Positions 1,773-13,207 of a DNA stretch of 64,000 bases are shown piece after piece. A program made the position numbers and the translations under genes. Under the pieces are notes generated by a model. The model made no database searches. It saw nothing but the letters and a program-made list of their open reading frames with translations, and was not told the origin of the DNA. The stretch is taken from NCBI RefSeq assembly GCF_000385135.1, contig NZ_ARQM01000010.1:1860001-1924000 (forward strand), in the 5' to 3' direction. Each line of letters begins with the position of its first letter. Position 1 is the stretch's first letter. Origin of the DNA: Promicromonospora sukumoe 327MFSha3.1. GTDB taxonomy: Bacteria; Actinomycetota; Actinomycetes; Actinomycetales; Cellulomonadaceae.

Positions 1773-3027
1773 GCTTGTGTCCCGCCGACGGGAGATCCGG
1801 GCGCGGCTCGGGCAGCCCCGGCTGCCCGCCCACCTCCTGCGCCGGGTGGTGCTGCGCGAACTTGCGCACCTGGTTCAGCTCGGCGAGGCGCACCCAGGCG
1901 TCGCGCCGCGGCGACCGGTCCCCGCCGTACTTCAGCGGGTGCACGGCCCGGACTCGGCGCGCTGCGGCGCGCACCGACGCGTCGTGCACGTACCGGTCCA
2001 GGAGGAAGCCGGGGACGATGCGGTACAGCACCTCCAGCGGCTCCGCGGCCTCCGGCCAGCTCCCCGTGAGATGGTCGGCCGTCCAGAGCTCGGCCGGGTT
2101 GAGCCCGCTCGCCGTCAGGTAGTAGTTGGACCGACCGGTGCGCGGGTTCAGTTCGAAGAAGTGGCCCAGCCCGGTACGCGGGTCGATCTTCACGTCGAAG
2201 TTCGCGAAGCCCGTCCAGCCCAGGTGCTCCACGAGCCGGCGGGCGTCCGCCTCCACCTGCGGGAGCGGGCCGGTGAGGATCGCCGCCGGGTTCCCCAGCG
2301 TCCCGGGCGTGTGCTCCTCGAGCAGCACCCGGCCGCCCCACGCCATGCGCACAGCACCCGCGCGGTCGGAGTAGGTGGTCATGATCCGCATCTGCGCGTC
2401 GTCGCCGGGCACGTACTCCTGCAGGATCATCGGCCGCCGGTAACCCGCCTCCCCGGCCGCCGCCAGCAGTGCGGCCAGCTCCTCGCGGTCCCGCACCAGG
2501 TGCACCTTCGCCTTGCCCGCGAACGACACCTTGTGCCACGCCGAGTTGTCGCCCGGCTTGGCGATCACCGGGAACCGCAGGTCCAGCTCGCCCACCGCCG
2601 CGCCGCCGTCGCGCACCTCCGTGCGCGGGTGCGGCACCCCGAGCCGCAGGCAGAGCTCCGAGAACCGCTGCTTGTCCATCACCTGGTCGAGCAGCGCGGC
2701 CGACGGGTAGGGGACGACCGCCGCGTCCTCGAGGCGCTCGCGGTGCTCGGCGAGCGCCCGCACGTACCAGTCCACGCAGGTGACGGCGATGACCGGGCCC
2801 GGCGCGGCCGCGGCGACCCGCCGGATCAGCTCGACCATGACGTCCGGGTCGTCCAGCCGCGGCTCGACGACGTTCCGGATGATGGTGGAACGCGCGACGT
2901 TGGGCGTCGGCCGGATGGACACGACGGTCGACGTGACGCCGTAACCCTCGTGGAACGCGCGCGCGAGGCTGTACGCGCCGGCGTCGCCGCCGAGGATGAC
3001 CGGATGGAAGGCTGCGTGATGACCCAT
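1765..3027 (-). CDS. ATP-grasp ligase resembling D-aspartate ligase (cell-wall cross-bridge candidate)
   Basis: A 420-residue ATP-grasp protein. The N-terminus (FHPVILGGDAGAYSLARAFH, then EGYG) closely resembles the opening of D-aspartate ligases and related carboxylate-amine ligases. The ATP-binding parts follow: FPVIAKPGD, a Lys-rich stretch, QEYVPGDD, and near the metal site FANFDVKID...FFELNPRTGRSN with the Glu-x-Asn magnesium ligands. It would ligate a D-amino acid, made by the overlapping racemase, onto a peptidoglycan stem peptide in the cytoplasm. The ATG at 3027 has no clear ribosome site; a GTG 12 nt upstream is an alternative. It follows the DUF2071 gene by 92 bp on the same strand. 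Substrate is inferred from context. Confidence 0.75.
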   Translation of the reverse strand: MGHHAAFHPVILGGDAGAYSLARAFHEGYGVTSTVVSIRPTPNVARSTIIRNVVEPRLDDPDVMVELIRRVAAAAPGPVIAVTCVDWYVRALAEHRERLEDAAVVPYPSAALLDQVMDKQRFSELCLRLGVPHPRTEVRDGGAAVGELDLRFPVIAKPGDNSAWHKVSFAGKAKVHLVRDREELAALLAAAGEAGYRRPMILQEYVPGDDAQMRIMTTYSDRAGAVRMAWGGRVLLEEHTPGTLGNPAAILTGPLPQVEADARRLVEHLGWTGFANFDVKIDPRTGLGHFFELNPRTGRSNYYLTASGLNPAELWTADHLTGSWPEAAEPLEVLYRIVPGFLLDRYVHDASVRAAARRVRAVHPLKYGGDRSPRRDAWVRLAELNQVRKFAQHHPAQEVGGQPGLPEPRPDLPSAGHKLV

Positions 3028-3119
3028 GACACTTGACACGTCCGGCGGGCCGGAAAGGTTGTGCGGTGCCAGGGGTGAAGTACGTTTTGTCCGTTCGGAG
3101 GGTGCGCGCGGAGCGTGCC

Positions 3120-3869
3120 TCAGAGGCGTGCGCCGCGCCGGACGACGACGGGCGAGCCGTCGGCGACGAAGACCGAGAACGGCTCGGCGCCCAGGGCCTC
3201 GGCGAACTGCCGCCCGTAGACCGCCGCGACGTCGCACTCCAGGACGGGGTCGCCCGCCTGGCGCACCTGCCAGCTCGGGTGCTCGACCTGGTACTCGACG
3301 GTGCCGCCGCCGCGCTGTGCGGCGTAGCCCCAGTAGTGCTCGGTGACGAACTCCTCCTGGGAACCCGCCACGAGCGGCTCCGCGCCGCCGCGGACGGTGG
3401 CGCCGACACGGTGCCAGGCGCCGGCGTCGCGCCACGCGTACTCGACCAGCCCGCCCGGCGTGACCTCGCCGTCGTGCAGGTCGATCCGGTGCCGCATGGG
3501 CCGCGCGACGTAGTTCTCGCCGTAGGCGACCCGGGCCACGGTGGCCAGGGCCCACCGGGGCACGATCTCCTTGACGAACACCACGCCGCGCCGCCAGCCG
3601 TCGTCGGCACGGCGGCGGACGTAGAACCGCAGGTTGATCTCGTCGAAGTCGCGATGGAAGGGCACGGGGACGCCCAGCAGTCGGGTGTCGAGGAACCGGA
3701 AGCCGATCACGCTGACGAGGTGCCGGCCGTCCCAGGTGTCCAGCTCGACGCCGCTCGGGACGAGCGGGCGCAGCACGTCGGGGTCGATCTCGTAGCTGAG
3801 CATCACCAGGTGGCGCCACTCGGCGGCGAGGAACAGGCCGGTCCCCGGGCGTGCGTTCTCGGCGGTCAT
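3120..3869 (-). CDS. YqjF/DUF2071 family protein
   Basis: A 249-residue protein of the DUF2071 (YqjF) family. Family hallmarks include FLAAEWRHLVMLSYEIDPDVL near residue 10, LVPSGVELDTWDG, VSVIGFRF and a C-terminal half with FVTEHYWGYAAQRGG. No enzymatic role is established for the family as far as I know. The ATG at 3869 is placed 6 nt after a TACGTT -10 element on the reverse strand (3876-3881), so the mRNA is probably leaderless. It is divergent from the sigma-factor gene and may form a transcription unit with the ATP-grasp ligase and racemase downstream. Confidence 0.75.
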   Translation of the reverse strand: MTAENARPGTGLFLAAEWRHLVMLSYEIDPDVLRPLVPSGVELDTWDGRHLVSVIGFRFLDTRLLGVPVPFHRDFDEINLRFYVRRRADDGWRRGVVFVKEIVPRWALATVARVAYGENYVARPMRHRIDLHDGEVTPGGLVEYAWRDAGAWHRVGATVRGGAEPLVAGSQEEFVTEHYWGYAAQRGGGTVEYQVEHPSWQVRQAGDPVLECDVAAVYGRQFAEALGAEPFSVFVADGSPVVVRRGARL

Positions 3870-3913: not shown

Positions 3914-3941
3914 GGCAACCTTTGGCGGACACTCTCCGTAG
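3914..3941 (+). promoter_or_regulatory. Possible ECF-type (autoregulatory) promoter of the sigma-factor fusion
   Basis: GGCAACC (3914-3920), then 15 nt, then CCGTAG (3936-3941). An AAC-containing -35 and a CGT-containing -10 spaced by about 16 nt is the usual form of promoters read by ECF sigma factors, which commonly activate their own gene. The proposed translation start is at 3974. Inferred from pattern only. Confidence 0.4.
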
Positions 3942-3973
3942 TGGAGGGCATGAGGCAGGAGAGCGGGGCGGTC

Positions 3974-5995
3974 ATGGACGACTTCGAGGCGGGCGGGCCG
4001 TCGGACGGCGGCGCGCCGCTCGACGTGCGGGTCGAGGTGTCGCGGCCCCGGGACGCGGAGTTCACCGCGTTCGTCCGGGAGTCCAGTGCGTACCTGCACC
4101 GCACCGCGTTCCTGCTGTGCGGGGACCGGCACCGCGCGGAGGAGCTGGTCCAGTCGACGTTCGAGCGGGTCTACCGCACGTGGGCGAAGGTCCGGCCGGG
4201 CACGGAGACCGCCTATGCCCGCCGGATCTTGGTGAACCTGCGGATTGACGGCTGGCGGCACGCGCGCCGGGAGTCGTTCCCCGGCGACGACAAGATCCCG
4301 GTCGCCCCGTCGTCGGACCATGCCGGGCACGTGGCGCTGCGCGACGAGCTGGTGCGGGGACTGGCGCGGCTGCCCGTCAACCAGAGGCGGGTGGTGGTGC
4401 TGCGGCACCTGCTGGACCTGCCGGAGTCGGAGGTCGCCCGCGAGCTCGGGATCGCGGTCGGCACGGTGAAGGCGGCGAACTCGCGCGGGCTGGCGCGGCT
4501 GCGGGACCTGCTGGTGGCGCAGGCCGAGGTGATCGAGCCGGTGGAGGTCGACGAGCGGGCCGTGCTGGACCGGAGCCGGGCCGCGCTGCGCCGACGTCGG
4601 ACGGGTCAGGCGGTCGGGGCGGCGTGCGTGGCGCTGCTGGTGGTGCTCGGAGTGCTGACGCGAGGGCCGGTGTTGTTGCCCGGGATCGGGCCGGTGGTGC
4701 TGCCGGGCGGGGAGCTGATCGCGCGGCTGTTCGACGGCGGCCCGATCGACGGGTTCGGACCGGACCTGGATCCCGCGGGCTACACGCCGGTCCAGTGCCC
4801 CGAGGCACTCCCGGGACCGGCACCGACCAGCGCTCCGGGACCTGGCGAGGACACCGGTCCGCTCACCGACCCCGTCGTGGTCGATGCCTCGGACGCCCGC
4901 CCCCTGAACTGCTACGACGTCGACATCGAGGTCGTCAATCCCGGCTATCGCGACGGCTCGGGACTTCTGGTCGCCCCCTACGGGCAGCCGCTTCCTGAGC
5001 CTCGCGGGCTCTCCGCCTTTGGCCAGGTCTGGACCTTCGACACTGCGGAGCTCCTCGACGACGACGATGCGACCGACGAGGCAACCATCCTGACCGACGG
5101 CTGGACGGGCGACGGGTCAGGGGGCGCCGCGACCACCCTGACGTGGTACCAGGACAGCAGGGCGTTTCCGACCGGCCTCGCGGTCACCGGAGAGCGTGCG
5201 GTCTGGAGCGACTACGCGGCGGCGGGCACGTCACCCCGTGCGAGCTTCGTCAGTACGCTCAGCCTGTCCGACGGAACCCTCAACAGTTGGACGGAACCCC
5301 TGGTCACCAGCCAGGAGAACGTGTGGCTCATCGCGACCACCCAGGATCATGCCTTGTGGACGGCCGGGGACACGGCGGACGACACCCGCCTGTTCGCCGA
5401 GACGCTCGACCACGAGGGCACGCCGATGGAGCTCGCGTCCGGCGTCACGGCGCTCGCGGCGGACGAGGACGAGGCGGTCGCCGCCGTACTGGCCCCCGGT
5501 TCCGGGGAGACCAGCACGACGTCGATCCAGCTGTTCGACGACCTGGCCGGCGGAGACACGACTGGTGTCGAGCTCATGGAGTTCGAGCACGACTCCTCGT
5601 CCGAGGTCACCCAGGTCGCGATCTCGGACGACGTCATCGCGTGGACGGTCAGCCTCGGCGCCGACGGGCCCGGTGCCCTGTACGTCGTCGACCGCGCCGG
5701 TGACGGCGACAGCATCGTGCGGCTGCCCGACGCCGTCGTCGCGGACCTCCGCGCGGCCGGTGGCCTGCTCTCGTGGAGCAGCACCGACCCCGGGGCGCAG
5801 GACTCGGCGGCGGCGTCCTACCTGTACCGTGCGACGGCGTCGGCCTCGGGTTACGACGGCCCGGACCTGGCCCGCTTCCCGGGCGGGTCGGTGACCGCGA
5901 GCGTGGCCGGTGCCCGCACCGCCTGGCTCGAGGAAACGGGCTCGCGGGTCTGGCTCGTCAAGGCGGCGCTGGCCCCCACCCTGGAGCGCGGCTGA
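3974..5995 (+). CDS. ECF sigma factor (SigE family) fused to a transmembrane helix and large extracytoplasmic domain
   Basis: A 673-residue fusion. Residues about 30-95 are sigma region 2 (FLLCGDRHRAEELVQSTFER, YARRILVNLRIDGWR) and 120-180 are region 4 (LPVNQRRVVVLRHLLDLPES, GIAVGTVKAANSRGLARL), typical of SigE-family ECF factors. Residues about 211-229 form a single hydrophobic helix after a basic cluster (RRRR). The remaining 440 residues are rich in Asp, Gly and Thr with repeated WT/WS and VAG(A)RTAW-like segments that suggest a beta-propeller outside the membrane. Usually the sigma factor and such a membrane protein are separate neighbouring genes. Start 3974 was preferred to 3950 because AGGAGAG lies at a proper distance only from the former. 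No signal sequence. Possible self-contained envelope-stress sensor. Confidence 0.8.
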   Translation: MDDFEAGGPSDGGAPLDVRVEVSRPRDAEFTAFVRESSAYLHRTAFLLCGDRHRAEELVQSTFERVYRTWAKVRPGTETAYARRILVNLRIDGWRHARRESFPGDDKIPVAPSSDHAGHVALRDELVRGLARLPVNQRRVVVLRHLLDLPESEVARELGIAVGTVKAANSRGLARLRDLLVAQAEVIEPVEVDERAVLDRSRAALRRRRTGQAVGAACVALLVVLGVLTRGPVLLPGIGPVVLPGGELIARLFDGGPIDGFGPDLDPAGYTPVQCPEALPGPAPTSAPGPGEDTGPLTDPVVVDASDARPLNCYDVDIEVVNPGYRDGSGLLVAPYGQPLPEPRGLSAFGQVWTFDTAELLDDDDATDEATILTDGWTGDGSGGAATTLTWYQDSRAFPTGLAVTGERAVWSDYAAAGTSPRASFVSTLSLSDGTLNSWTEPLVTSQENVWLIATTQDHALWTAGDTADDTRLFAETLDHEGTPMELASGVTALAADEDEAVAAVLAPGSGETSTTSIQLFDDLAGGDTTGVELMEFEHDSSSEVTQVAISDDVIAWTVSLGADGPGALYVVDRAGDGDSIVRLPDAVVADLRAAGGLLSWSSTDPGAQDSAAASYLYRATASASGYDGPDLARFPGGSVTASVAGARTAWLEETGSRVWLVKAALAPTLERG

Positions 5996-7475: not shown

Positions 7476-8426
7476 ATGAGCCCACCCGGGATCGAGGTCC
7501 CGCCGGCGCTCGCGGCGTCGTACGCCCGGAGCCTCGGCGACGAGGGGCGGTCATGGACCGCCGCGCTGCCCGGCCTGGTCGCCGACCTGCTGGACCGCTG
7601 GGACCTGCGGCCCGACGGCGCGACGTCGGCGGGGGCGGCGTCGCTCGTCGTGCCCGTGGCGGGCCGGGACGGCGTCCGCGCGGTGCTCAGGCTGCAGCCG
7701 CCCCGCCCCGAGACCGCCGCTGCCCTGACCGGTCTGCGCGCGTGGGACGGGCACGGGACGGTGCGGCTGCTCGACCACGACCCCGGCAGCGGCACGATGC
7801 TCCTGGAGCGGCTGGACGGCGCCCGCACCCTCGCCTCGGTCCCGGACGACGGCGCGGCGACGCGGGTCCTCGCCGAGCTGCACGCCCGGCTGCTCGCCGT
7901 CCCGCCGCCGCCGGGGCTGCCGCACCTGCGCGACGTCGCCGCCGCGATGCTCGACCAGGTCCCGCGCGCCGTCACGGCCCTGGCCGACCCGGCCGAGCGG
8001 CGCGTCCTGCGGGACTGGGCTGCCGTCGTGGCGGAGCTGGCCGCCGACCCCGGCGACCGGATGCTGCACTGGGACCTGCACCACGACAACGTGCTGGCGG
8101 CGGAGCGCGAGCCGTGGCTCGCGATCGACCCCGAGCCCCTGGTGGGCGACCCGGGCTTCGACCTGTGGCCGGCCCTGGACAGCCGGTGGGACGACGTCGT
8201 GGCGGGCGGCGACGCCCGGCGCGTGGTGCGCCGGAGGTTCGACGTGCTCACCGACGTGCTCGACCTCGACCGGGAGCGCGCGGCCGGCTGGACGCTGGGG
8301 CGCCTGCTGCAGAACGCCCTGTGGGACATCGAGGACGGCGAGCCCGCGCTCGCCCCCGCCGCGCTCGTCACGGCCGAGGCGCTACGGGGCGGTCAGCGGG
8401 GCTCTCGGCCGAGCTTGCGCTCGTAG
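7476..8426 (+). CDS. Aminoglycoside-phosphotransferase-like kinase (APH(6)/streptomycin-kinase type)
   Basis: A 316-residue small-molecule kinase with the APH fold. The catalytic loop HWDLHHDN lies at about 198-205 and the metal-binding IDPEPLVGDPGFD at about 217-229. The N-lobe pattern (LVVPVAGRDGVRAVLRLQPP, then LLDHDPGSGTMLLERLDG) is that of the streptomycin 6-phosphotransferase/hydroxyurea phosphotransferase family. The real substrate may be an antibiotic or an unknown metabolite; chromosomal members often have no proven resistance role. It starts 3 nt after the upstream hypothetical gene and its last 34 bp overlap the 3' end of the GNAT gene on the other strand. Confidence 0.8.
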   Translation: MSPPGIEVPPALAASYARSLGDEGRSWTAALPGLVADLLDRWDLRPDGATSAGAASLVVPVAGRDGVRAVLRLQPPRPETAAALTGLRAWDGHGTVRLLDHDPGSGTMLLERLDGARTLASVPDDGAATRVLAELHARLLAVPPPPGLPHLRDVAAAMLDQVPRAVTALADPAERRVLRDWAAVVAELAADPGDRMLHWDLHHDNVLAAEREPWLAIDPEPLVGDPGFDLWPALDSRWDDVVAGGDARRVVRRRFDVLTDVLDLDRERAAGWTLGRLLQNALWDIEDGEPALAPAALVTAEALRGGQRGSRPSLRS

Positions 8427-11524: not shown

Positions 11525-13207
11525 ATGCCCTCACGCCTGCCCGCAGTGACGCAGCCAGTGCCCACCGCACCCTCGCCGGGTACGAGACACGACACGACCG
11601 CGCTGCTGCGCGGGGCCACCGCGAGCACCTATGCGGACACGGTCCACGCGGTCGCCGACGACATCGCCGCCCGCCTGACCTCGGTCACGCAGCCGTTCTC
11701 GGGCGCCAGCCGCCCTGAGCTGCAGGGCCTGGTGGACGCCGTCGACCTGGACGGCCCGCCGTCGGGCACGGCCGGGGCGCTGCGCGAGGCCGCCGAGCTG
11801 TACGCGAGGCACGCGATCTGGTTCCACGAGCCCACCTACGCCGCGCACCTGAACTGCCCGGTCGCGCTGCCGGCCGTGGGAGCCGAGACGATGCTCGCCG
11901 CGATCAACACCTCGGTCGACACCTACGACCAGTCCACCGTGGCCACCCTCATGGAGCGGCGCCTGGTCGAGTGGACGGCGGGCCGCATCGGATTCCCGGT
12001 GGACGGCGAACCCGGTGGCGCCGCGGACGGCGGGGCCGACGGCATCTTCACCTCGGGCGGCACCCAGTCCAACTTCCAGGCCCTGTTCCTGGCGCGCGAG
12101 CGGGCGCGCCGCGCCGGCACGCGCCTGGAGTCGATGCGCATCCTCGCCACCACGGCCAGCCACTTCAGCGTCGCCAAGTCGGCCCTGCTGCTCGGCCTGC
12201 CCGACGACGCCGTGGTCGCCGTCGGCACCGACACCGAGGGGCGGATGAGCGCCGACGCCCTCGGCGAGACCCTCGTCGACATCGAGCGCACCGGCGACAC
12301 CGTGATCGCCGTCGTCGCCACCGCCGGCACCACCGACCGCGGCCGCATCGACCCGCTCGGCCCGATCGCCGACCTGTGCGACGCCGTCGGCACCTGGCTG
12401 CACGTCGACGCCGCCTACGGCTGCGGCCTGCTGGTCAGCCCCACGCGCCGGAACCTGCTGGACGGCATCGAGCGGGCCCGCAGCGTCACCGTCGACTTCC
12501 ACAAGTCGTTCTTCCAGCCCGTCTCGTCCAGCGCGCTGATCGTGCGCGAGCGGGCCGACCTGGCGCCCGTCGCCTGGCACGCCGACTACCTCAACCCCGA
12601 GGAGAACGCCGAACCCAACCAGGTCGACAAGTCGCTGCAGACCACGCGCCGCTTCGACGCCCTCAAGCTCTGGGTCACCCTCCGCGCGCTCGGCGCGGAC
12701 GGCATCGGCGCCCTGGTGGACGCCGTCTGCGACCTCACCGTCGCCGTGCGCCAGGACCTCGCCGGAGACCGCGACTTCAAGCTGGTGGGCACCACCGACC
12801 TGTCCACCGTCCTGTTCCGCTACGAGCCCGAGGGCCTGGACCCGGCGCACGCCGACGCGCTGGTGCCCCAGGTGCGGCGCGTGCTGTTCGACTCGGGCCG
12901 CGCCCTGGTGGCCAAGACCGTCATCGACGGCCGCCCCTGCCTCAAGCTCACCCTGCTCAACCCCGACGCCACGCTCGGCGACATCCGCGGCGTGCTCGAG
13001 CTCGTCCGCTCCGCCGCCCACGGGCTGCTCGCGGGGGAGGCGCTGGCGGACACCGACGAGCCGCCGTGCCGGGACGTGCACCCGCGGCTCGCGCGGTCGG
13101 AGGAGGCCGGCGCGGGGGAGGCCGGCGCCGGTCTGGCCGACGCGGAGGGCGGTCGTGCGGTCGCCGACGCCGAAGAGGGCGCCCCGACCGCGGAGGAGAG
13201 CCGATGA
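11525..13207 (+). CDS. desA: Lysine (diamine-forming) decarboxylase of desferrioxamine biosynthesis
   Basis: A 560-residue PLP-dependent group II decarboxylase. It would convert L-lysine to cadaverine, the first step to desferrioxamine. The phosphate-binding TSGGTQSNF is at about 176-184, the cofactor Asp in HVDAAYG (Asp295) and the Schiff-base Lys in DFHKSFFQP (Lys327). The final 50 residues are an unusual Ala/Gly/Glu-rich repeat tail (EEAGAGEAGAG and similar). A GAGGAG ribosome site sits 8 nt before the ATG. The gene follows the iron box and its stop overlaps the desB ATG (ATGA at 13204-13207). Ornithine or diaminobutyrate use is possible, but the following genes favour lysine. Confidence 0.9.
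   Translation: MPSRLPAVTQPVPTAPSPGTRHDTTALLRGATASTYADTVHAVADDIAARLTSVTQPFSGASRPELQGLVDAVDLDGPPSGTAGALREAAELYARHAIWFHEPTYAAHLNCPVALPAVGAETMLAAINTSVDTYDQSTVATLMERRLVEWTAGRIGFPVDGEPGGAADGGADGIFTSGGTQSNFQALFLARERARRAGTRLESMRILATTASHFSVAKSALLLGLPDDAVVAVGTDTEGRMSADALGETLVDIERTGDTVIAVVATAGTTDRGRIDPLGPIADLCDAVGTWLHVDAAYGCGLLVSPTRRNLLDGIERARSVTVDFHKSFFQPVSSSALIVRERADLAPVAWHADYLNPEENAEPNQVDKSLQTTRRFDALKLWVTLRALGADGIGALVDAVCDLTVAVRQDLAGDRDFKLVGTTDLSTVLFRYEPEGLDPAHADALVPQVRRVLFDSGRALVAKTVIDGRPCLKLTLLNPDATLGDIRGVLELVRSAAHGLLAGEALADTDEPPCRDVHPRLARSEEAGAGEAGAGLADAEGGRAVADAEEGAPTAEESR

Follow-up and report, generated by a model that had tools for sequence, protein, structure and literature searches.

A SigE-family ECF sigma factor that shares one chain with a membrane helix and an outer repeat domain, and its split relatives

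A membrane sensor of its own is rare among ECF sigma factors. The open reading frame P0001 (positions 3974-5995, plus strand; 673 amino acids plus stop, all in one frame) in the 64,000-nucleotide stretch of DNA analysed here, which we call the window, appears to encode such a protein, and raises the question of whether a sigma factor is held at the membrane by its own chain and, if so, how it would be switched on. Fused and split versions of this module occur in one genome with the same promoter type, so that two questions become open to direct experiment. One is whether being tethered is enough to silence a sigma factor, or in other words whether activity requires release from the membrane; the other is whether the short membrane partner found in the SigE family inhibits its sigma factor in the first place.

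The first part of P0001 is a complete ECF sigma factor of the SigE family, as the initial annotation had claimed. Sigma region 2 (residues 35-99) and region 4 (r4_2, residues 124-176) pass the Pfam cut-offs, with no Pfam match between them, i.e. no region 3, which is the arrangement of ECF factors; with the SigE-family model TIGR02983, residues 27-181 reach 155.1 bits (cut-off 141.55). Accordingly delimited, the sigma domain comprises residues 1-181 (3974..4516, plus strand). It continues in frame into a predicted cytoplasmic linker (residues 182-210; 4517..4603, plus strand) and a single predicted membrane helix (residues 211-229; 4604..4660, plus strand), the only strongly hydrophobic stretch of the protein: the top 19-residue windows start at residues 210-217 and reach 2.13-2.23, compared to at most 1.28 elsewhere. 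Lysine and arginine number seven in the 20 residues preceding residue 211 and one in the 20 residues following residue 229, and the predicted topology is N-in, C-out. The part predicted to lie outside, of 444 amino acids, is acidic (68 D/E vs 18 K/R), in agreement with the single helix and the outer domain of about 440 residues that had been described before. The GC content of 70-76%, together with the SigE family, suggests that the host is a high-GC actinobacterium.

Beyond the sigma domain, P0001 has no Pfam match, and in the outer part none was found up to E 1. We compared 21 extensions (16 fused, 5 split), in which Pfam searches up to E 10 returned six families, the best at E 0.018 (DUF3040 in four members, WD40_2 in two and four families in one member each). 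Directly after the helix lies a conserved juxtamembrane motif, GPVLLPGIGPVVLPGGE (residues 231-247; 4664..4714, plus strand), in which G231, P232, V233, P236, G239, P244 and G245 are invariant in all 21 extensions. It is followed by two conserved cysteines (4796..4912, plus strand), C275 (4796-4798; 19 of 21 extensions) and C313 (4910-4912; 17 of 21), which presumably form a disulfide.

The remainder of the outer part appears to be built of repeats. When the profile of the outer part was compared with itself, an off-diagonal match was detected over 253 columns at a shift of about 56, with a score of 51 (E 8e-6). The highest score among 20 column shuffles was 18.2, and because of this difference we consider the internal repeats real; they amount to the repeated blades expected of a beta-propeller. 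Tryptophans are conserved at W411, W601 and W651 (21/21 extensions), W462 (19) and W353 and W557 (12 each). We read this domain (5003..5968, plus strand, limits approximate) as roughly seven repeats, each about 50 residues long. When the outer profile was compared with solved structures, BamB accounted for 15 of the 17 matches up to E 10, all weak (best E 0.0077). BamB is a propeller. The single-sequence structure model of residues 243-673 is poor (pLDDT 35.5). Of the propeller-like character proposed in the initial annotation, the internal repeats hold, and the fold itself, which would be a closed ring of four-stranded blades, is a likely but unproven reading of the sequence, the model being too poor to show it.

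The same fusion was found in relatives. A profile of sigma domain, linker and helix (A3; 16 fused sequences, 228 positions) was searched in 221 genomes of the family, and 35 sequences matched over its full span, starting at position 1-2 and ending at 226-228 with no stop between, at E 2.9e-97 or better; in them, as in P0001, the sigma domain runs on through a membrane helix into an outer domain. Thirty-four of them come from G000-G011, which are 12 of the own genus's 13 genomes (in the thirteenth, G012, the A3 search returned no fused sequence), and one belongs to a genome of another genus (G176). Below this set, the next match has E 2.0e-75, and the others, among the matches listed down to about E 1.6e-57, either reach no further than position 176 or run across a stop. 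A stop at the junction, named beforehand as a sign of a recent fusion or assembly error, is absent from the 35 fused relatives and occurs in split relatives only, most of which branch outside the fused clade. Because 35 places read through sigma domain, linker and helix without a stop, the fusion is neither an assembly error nor a recent accident. Beyond the family, a sample of 396 genomes of the order contained fused sequences at E 1e-45 nowhere but in the own genome. A 396-genome sample of the phylum gave, at 1e-45, no SigE-type match whatsoever beyond the own genome and is therefore a weak test for fusions elsewhere. Since the profile searches score no more than 7 to 13 candidates in each genome, they may overlook fused forms elsewhere; a scan of genome contigs returned one distant sigma factor only (L037).

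The phylogeny of the sigma domains suggests how the fusion arose. We compared 96 sequences (35 fused and 61 split) from 184 loci, which are the best search matches rather than a random sample, with identical sigma sequences counted once and four low-scoring sequences (L100, L176 and two of L180) dropped. The fused groups A (12 sequences), B (6), C1 (6) and C2 (11) form one clade together with a split group, D (6), with support 83/88. This clade sits among split sequences, those of G372 and G007 adjoining it (99/93), and because of this nested position the fusion is derived from a split pair. In a smaller tree, a single origin of the fusion is compatible with the data (p-AU 0.56), which is not to say demonstrated; in the tree of 96 sequences, the base of the clade with group D is poorly ordered. 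The sole fused copy found outside the genus (G176:C61; L119 / L181) falls within the C2 group of the own genus, and this placement suggests transfer.

In the split pairs, the next gene encodes what seems to be the same membrane extension. In all 61 split cases, an open frame takes over where the sigma gene stops (offset -8 to +2) and contains a membrane helix within its first 110 residues, the first helix window lying at a median residue of 45. The two genes overlap by 4 bp in 53 of the 61, a count to be read with the preference of our start choice for starts near that offset. A profile of 55 partner N-termini, from which group D was excluded, matches all 35 fused linkers and all six group D partners; the E-values on the fused linkers range from 6.9e-11 to 0.042 (among 41 sequences), with group C2 the weakest. 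In the linker of P0001 we thus see a homologue of the split partners' cytoplasmic end (D...VL..SR.ALRRRR). In single-sequence searches, the whole extension of P0001 matches the group D partners over nearly its full length (E 3.3e-19 in G007, 2.5e-10 in G000). With the other split partners, whose outer domains appear different, it has linker and helix in common. The fused extension is therefore best described, on homology, as the one-helix membrane partner usual in the family, which is normally encoded by the next, overlapping gene.

This bears on the statement of the initial annotation that the protein works without a separate anti-sigma factor. There is indeed no separate gene, the two parts being fused, but the extension is the family's usual partner, which is separately encoded in 61 of 61 split cases and is itself a putative anti-sigma factor; we recognised no known anti-sigma domain in this short SigE-family partner. 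For 29 of the 35 fused sequences, the partner match starts at profile position 7-10, on the last sigma helix (LARLR), a place at which the partners carry a comparable first helix. In the fused chain, this partner helix seems either to have fused into the sigma domain's C-terminal end or to have given way to it. Because the fused linker thus seems to be devoid of the helix, the fusion may have cost the chain an inhibitory contact. Group D offers the closest comparison, with a copy in the own genome (G000:C14:3827-5796). Its sigma domain, linker, helix, juxtamembrane motif, outer domain and promoter type are homologous to those of P0001; it differs in consisting of two genes with a 4 bp overlap, in a partner that has its own first helix (LRxxA-like), and in the promoter spacing (N17 vs N16).

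The sigma part is under strong purifying selection, and the sensor is fast-changing. In six pairs of group A, dN/dS is 0.06-0.17 for the sigma domain, 0.17-0.41 for linker and helix, 0.29-0.68 for residues 251-330 and 0.40-0.74 for the repeat domain, hence below 1 for every one of the four segments in all six pairs. Two copies in one genome of the genus, G010 (L009 and L021), have nearly the same sigma domain (dN 0.012, dS 0.21) and diverged repeat domains (dN 0.29, dS 0.58), a pattern that reflects either one sigma specificity served by several sensors or gene conversion in the 5' portion. Several relatives are broken. Remains of a group A fusion were found in G006 (L208:6880-7555) and G002 (L209:7353-7550). 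A group B copy in G007 (L203:2523) has kept its promoter, followed by a 137-residue frame in which the sigma domain is partly missing. In a C2 paralogue of the own genome (G000:C1, L003:1474-3585), the fused frame ends after 460 residues and homology resumes in another frame (3052-3585); this break is a frameshift, real or from sequencing.

An ECF-type promoter element, CAACCTTT-N12-CCGTAGTGG (3916..3944, plus strand; AACC at 3917-3920, CGT at 3937-3939), precedes P0001. Allowing up to three mismatches, the window contains one match to it, compared to 0.02 expected. Within 260 nt upstream of the sigma domain, AACC-N16/17-CGT occurs in 12/12 sequences of group A, 6/6 of B, 5/6 of C1, 11/11 of C2, 6/6 of D and 41/53 of the other split sequences, two further split sequences having too little upstream sequence to be counted; the numbers expected from first-order Markov shuffles are 0.1-0.3 for each fused group and for D, and 1.3 for the 53 other split sequences. 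The longer pattern AACC-N16/17-CGT-N10-ATG (expected 0.00-0.03) is found in 12 sequences of A, 6 of B, 5 of C1, 11 of C2, 6 of D and 5 of the 53 other split ones. Because this element thus stands in front of 34 of the 35 fused genes and all six split group D genes, self-activation is well supported, and the family genes analysed here are likely to activate themselves. The self-directed promoter that had earlier been called plausible therefore deserves a stronger word.

At the scale of the 6.25-Mb genome, the pattern AACCT-N14-16-CGTRGTGG has three matches, located before the window gene, the split group D gene and a group B fusion. The reversed control also has three, so the evidence lies in the position of the matches rather than in their count; an earlier pattern with the wrong spacing had no matches in this search. 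With up to three mismatches to the window element, four sites were found in the genome against one for the control. Besides the window element itself, these are one before another SigE-family gene (C6:61228), one inside long open frames (C10:1343350) and one at G000:C10:951433 (L196). At the last of these, AACC-N16-CGT-N10-ATG stands right at the start of a gene for a 217-residue protein with a signal-peptide-like N-terminus, which makes this gene a candidate target of a SigE-family factor.

The distance of 10 nt from CGT to ATG has a consequence for the start of P0001. An ATG at 3950, exactly 10 nt after the CGT and in frame with that at 3974, is a possible leaderless start and would add eight codons (3950..3973, plus strand), so the true start may be either 3950, with a product eight residues longer, or 3974. 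Such an ATG is in frame in 9/12 sequences of group A, 6/6 of B, 5/5 of those of C1 with the motif and 11/11 of C2, as opposed to 0/6 of D. In all six group D copies (L004, L029, L030, L058, L059 and L062), the ATG 10 nt past the -10 element is out of frame with the sigma gene, and a short leaderless upstream frame may therefore exist in this group.

The surroundings of P0001 vary. Its downstream gene, on the opposite strand, encodes a PAP2 phosphatase and the divergent upstream gene a DUF2071 protein, neither being a one-helix gene of the partner type. Also in the window, at 3025-3060 on the minus strand, AACC-N16-CGT-N10-ATG lies exactly at the start of an ATP-grasp gene, which is followed by an Asp/Glu racemase gene; we do not claim the ATP-grasp gene as a target of the sigma factor, the nearest relative having AACG at -35. 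Among ten regions with a full-length group A copy (L198-L207), one (L198) has the ATP-grasp and DUF2071 genes, and neither of two regions with group A relics has this neighbourhood. With neighbour genes common to one region in ten, no conserved operon partner of group A was inferred. Further along, the window contains genes for a kinase of the APH(6)/hydroxyurea type (7476-8423, plus strand) and for a pyridoxal-dependent decarboxylase (11525-13204, plus strand), the latter followed by a frame that we take to resemble siderophore-type hydroxylases.

Taken together, the 35 fused sequences, the promoter element and the predicted N-in topology make a membrane-tethered sigma factor, as first suggested from the sequence, that probably drives its own gene the best reading of P0001. 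Because the sigma domain is intact, conserved and preceded by the family's promoter, it should at some point reach RNA polymerase. We favour, with moderate confidence, a model in which the sigma domain of P0001, a SigE-family factor fused to its usual partner, is released by signal-triggered proteolysis. Under this model, the cytoplasmic sigma domain would be held at the membrane, and silent, through its linker of about 30 residues, while the outer repeat domain would sense an envelope signal. Upon this signal, a protease would trim the outer part and a site-2 protease would cleave within the membrane helix or close to it; once free, the sigma domain would join RNA polymerase and direct transcription from AACC-N16-CGT promoters, that of its own gene first. 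Sensing, silence in the tethered state and proteolytic release are suggested by analogy with known systems. The site-2 protease family PF02163 is present in the own genome (G000:C12:306092 and G000:C10:1248840-1249238) and, because it was also matched in 14 of 14 control genomes, says little. Against the model speak the apparent absence of the partner's first helix from the fused linker, the different ECF group of IutY, its main precedent, and the partial loss of activity that the sigma-only form of IutY suffers without the protease RseP.

The sigma domain might instead work in the membrane, the outer domain changing its shape or oligomer state and recruiting RNA polymerase there without cleavage, much as the regulators ToxR and CadC work while membrane-bound. 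The fused linker retains only part of the cytoplasmic end of the partner, so a complete inhibitor may be absent, and the junction has been maintained across four fused groups. If so, paralogues with near-identical sigma domains and diverged outer parts (L009, L021) would feed different signals into the same promoters. Nevertheless, according to the portion of the IutY report used here, anchored forms of that factor are inactive without the protease RseP (PMC5411451), and we regard activity without cleavage as unlikely; we are equally doubtful of the version in which the last sigma helix replaces the partner's first helix, no complete inhibitor is left and the outer domain switches the tethered sigma factor.

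A covalent sigma/anti-sigma pair, in which linker and helix inhibit reversibly and a signal relieves the inhibition without cutting, would agree with the homology of the linker to the cytoplasmic end of the split partners (35/35) and with the anti-sigma-like placement of these partners. However, their inhibition is itself putative, P0001 lacks the zinc motif Hx3Cx2C, and only about 29 residues separate sigma domain and helix. The class I anti-sigma domain, as described in part of one source (PMC7406223), has four helices, of which three lie on sigma4 and the fourth on sigma2; the stretch of about 29 residues looks too short for this, although the model of this part of P0001 (window 3950-4759, pLDDT 42.7) is too poor for a helix count. 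The reversible pair seems to us quite improbable. That the fusion is decaying or artefactual and has no function of its own is hardly credible: the broken relatives (group A fragments in two genomes, the deleted B copy and the frame-broken C2 copy) speak for it, whereas the 35 uninterrupted junctions, the dN/dS below 1 in four segments of six pairs, lowest in the sigma domain, and the conserved promoter speak against it.

The release model that we favour draws on fused membrane-bound ECF factors that are already known, namely ECF48, ECF52, ECF53 and IutY. The best-tested precedent, IutY of Pseudomonas putida (ECF243), in the partial account available to us, resembles P0001 in that a single chain carries a sigma domain, a membrane helix and an outer regulatory domain. 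It belongs to another ECF group, has 374 aa and works with an outer-membrane siderophore receptor, compared to the SigE family, repeat domain and presumed Gram-positive host of P0001; moreover, cleavage has been tested in IutY, whereas P0001 is known from its sequence alone. In the same account, truncated IutY variants that keep the helix depend completely on the site-2 protease RseP, and the sigma-only form is not processed by RseP, yet its activity is lower in the mutant, for which the authors invoke stability (PMC5411451). ECF48, ECF52 and ECF53 are grouped with IutY as proteolysis-activated in section 3.5.3 of a review (PMC8999054).

ECF52 (SCO4117 of Streptomyces coelicolor), ECF48 and ECF53 are, like P0001, actinobacterial factors with a fused C-terminal membrane extension, and positive autoregulation has been proposed in the sections consulted; a form of SCO4117 deprived of zinc finger, helix and carbohydrate module increased the expression of its own gene, according to part of the report (PMC5826349). 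From the same sections, ECF52 differs from P0001 in its zinc finger, proline-rich stretch and carbohydrate-binding module. Membership of P0001 in ECF52 fails on zinc finger and carbohydrate module, neither of which has a Pfam match up to E 1 in P0001; nor does any of the 21 extensions match a carbohydrate module up to E 10, and Hx3Cx2C occurs nowhere in the whole protein. ECF57 of Planctomycetes, set against P0001 by its partial description only, shares C-terminal repeats, WD40-like in that case, and differs in its lineage and in the role proposed for the repeats, protein interaction. Titles and abstract openings, a scope beyond which lie the main ECF classification paper and most subscription literature, yielded no description of a SigE-family fusion, which does not prove that none exists. 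Compared to these systems, what sets P0001 apart is the combination of a SigE-family sigma factor with a repeat sensor and no zinc-finger motif, and the coexistence of fused and split versions in a single genome.
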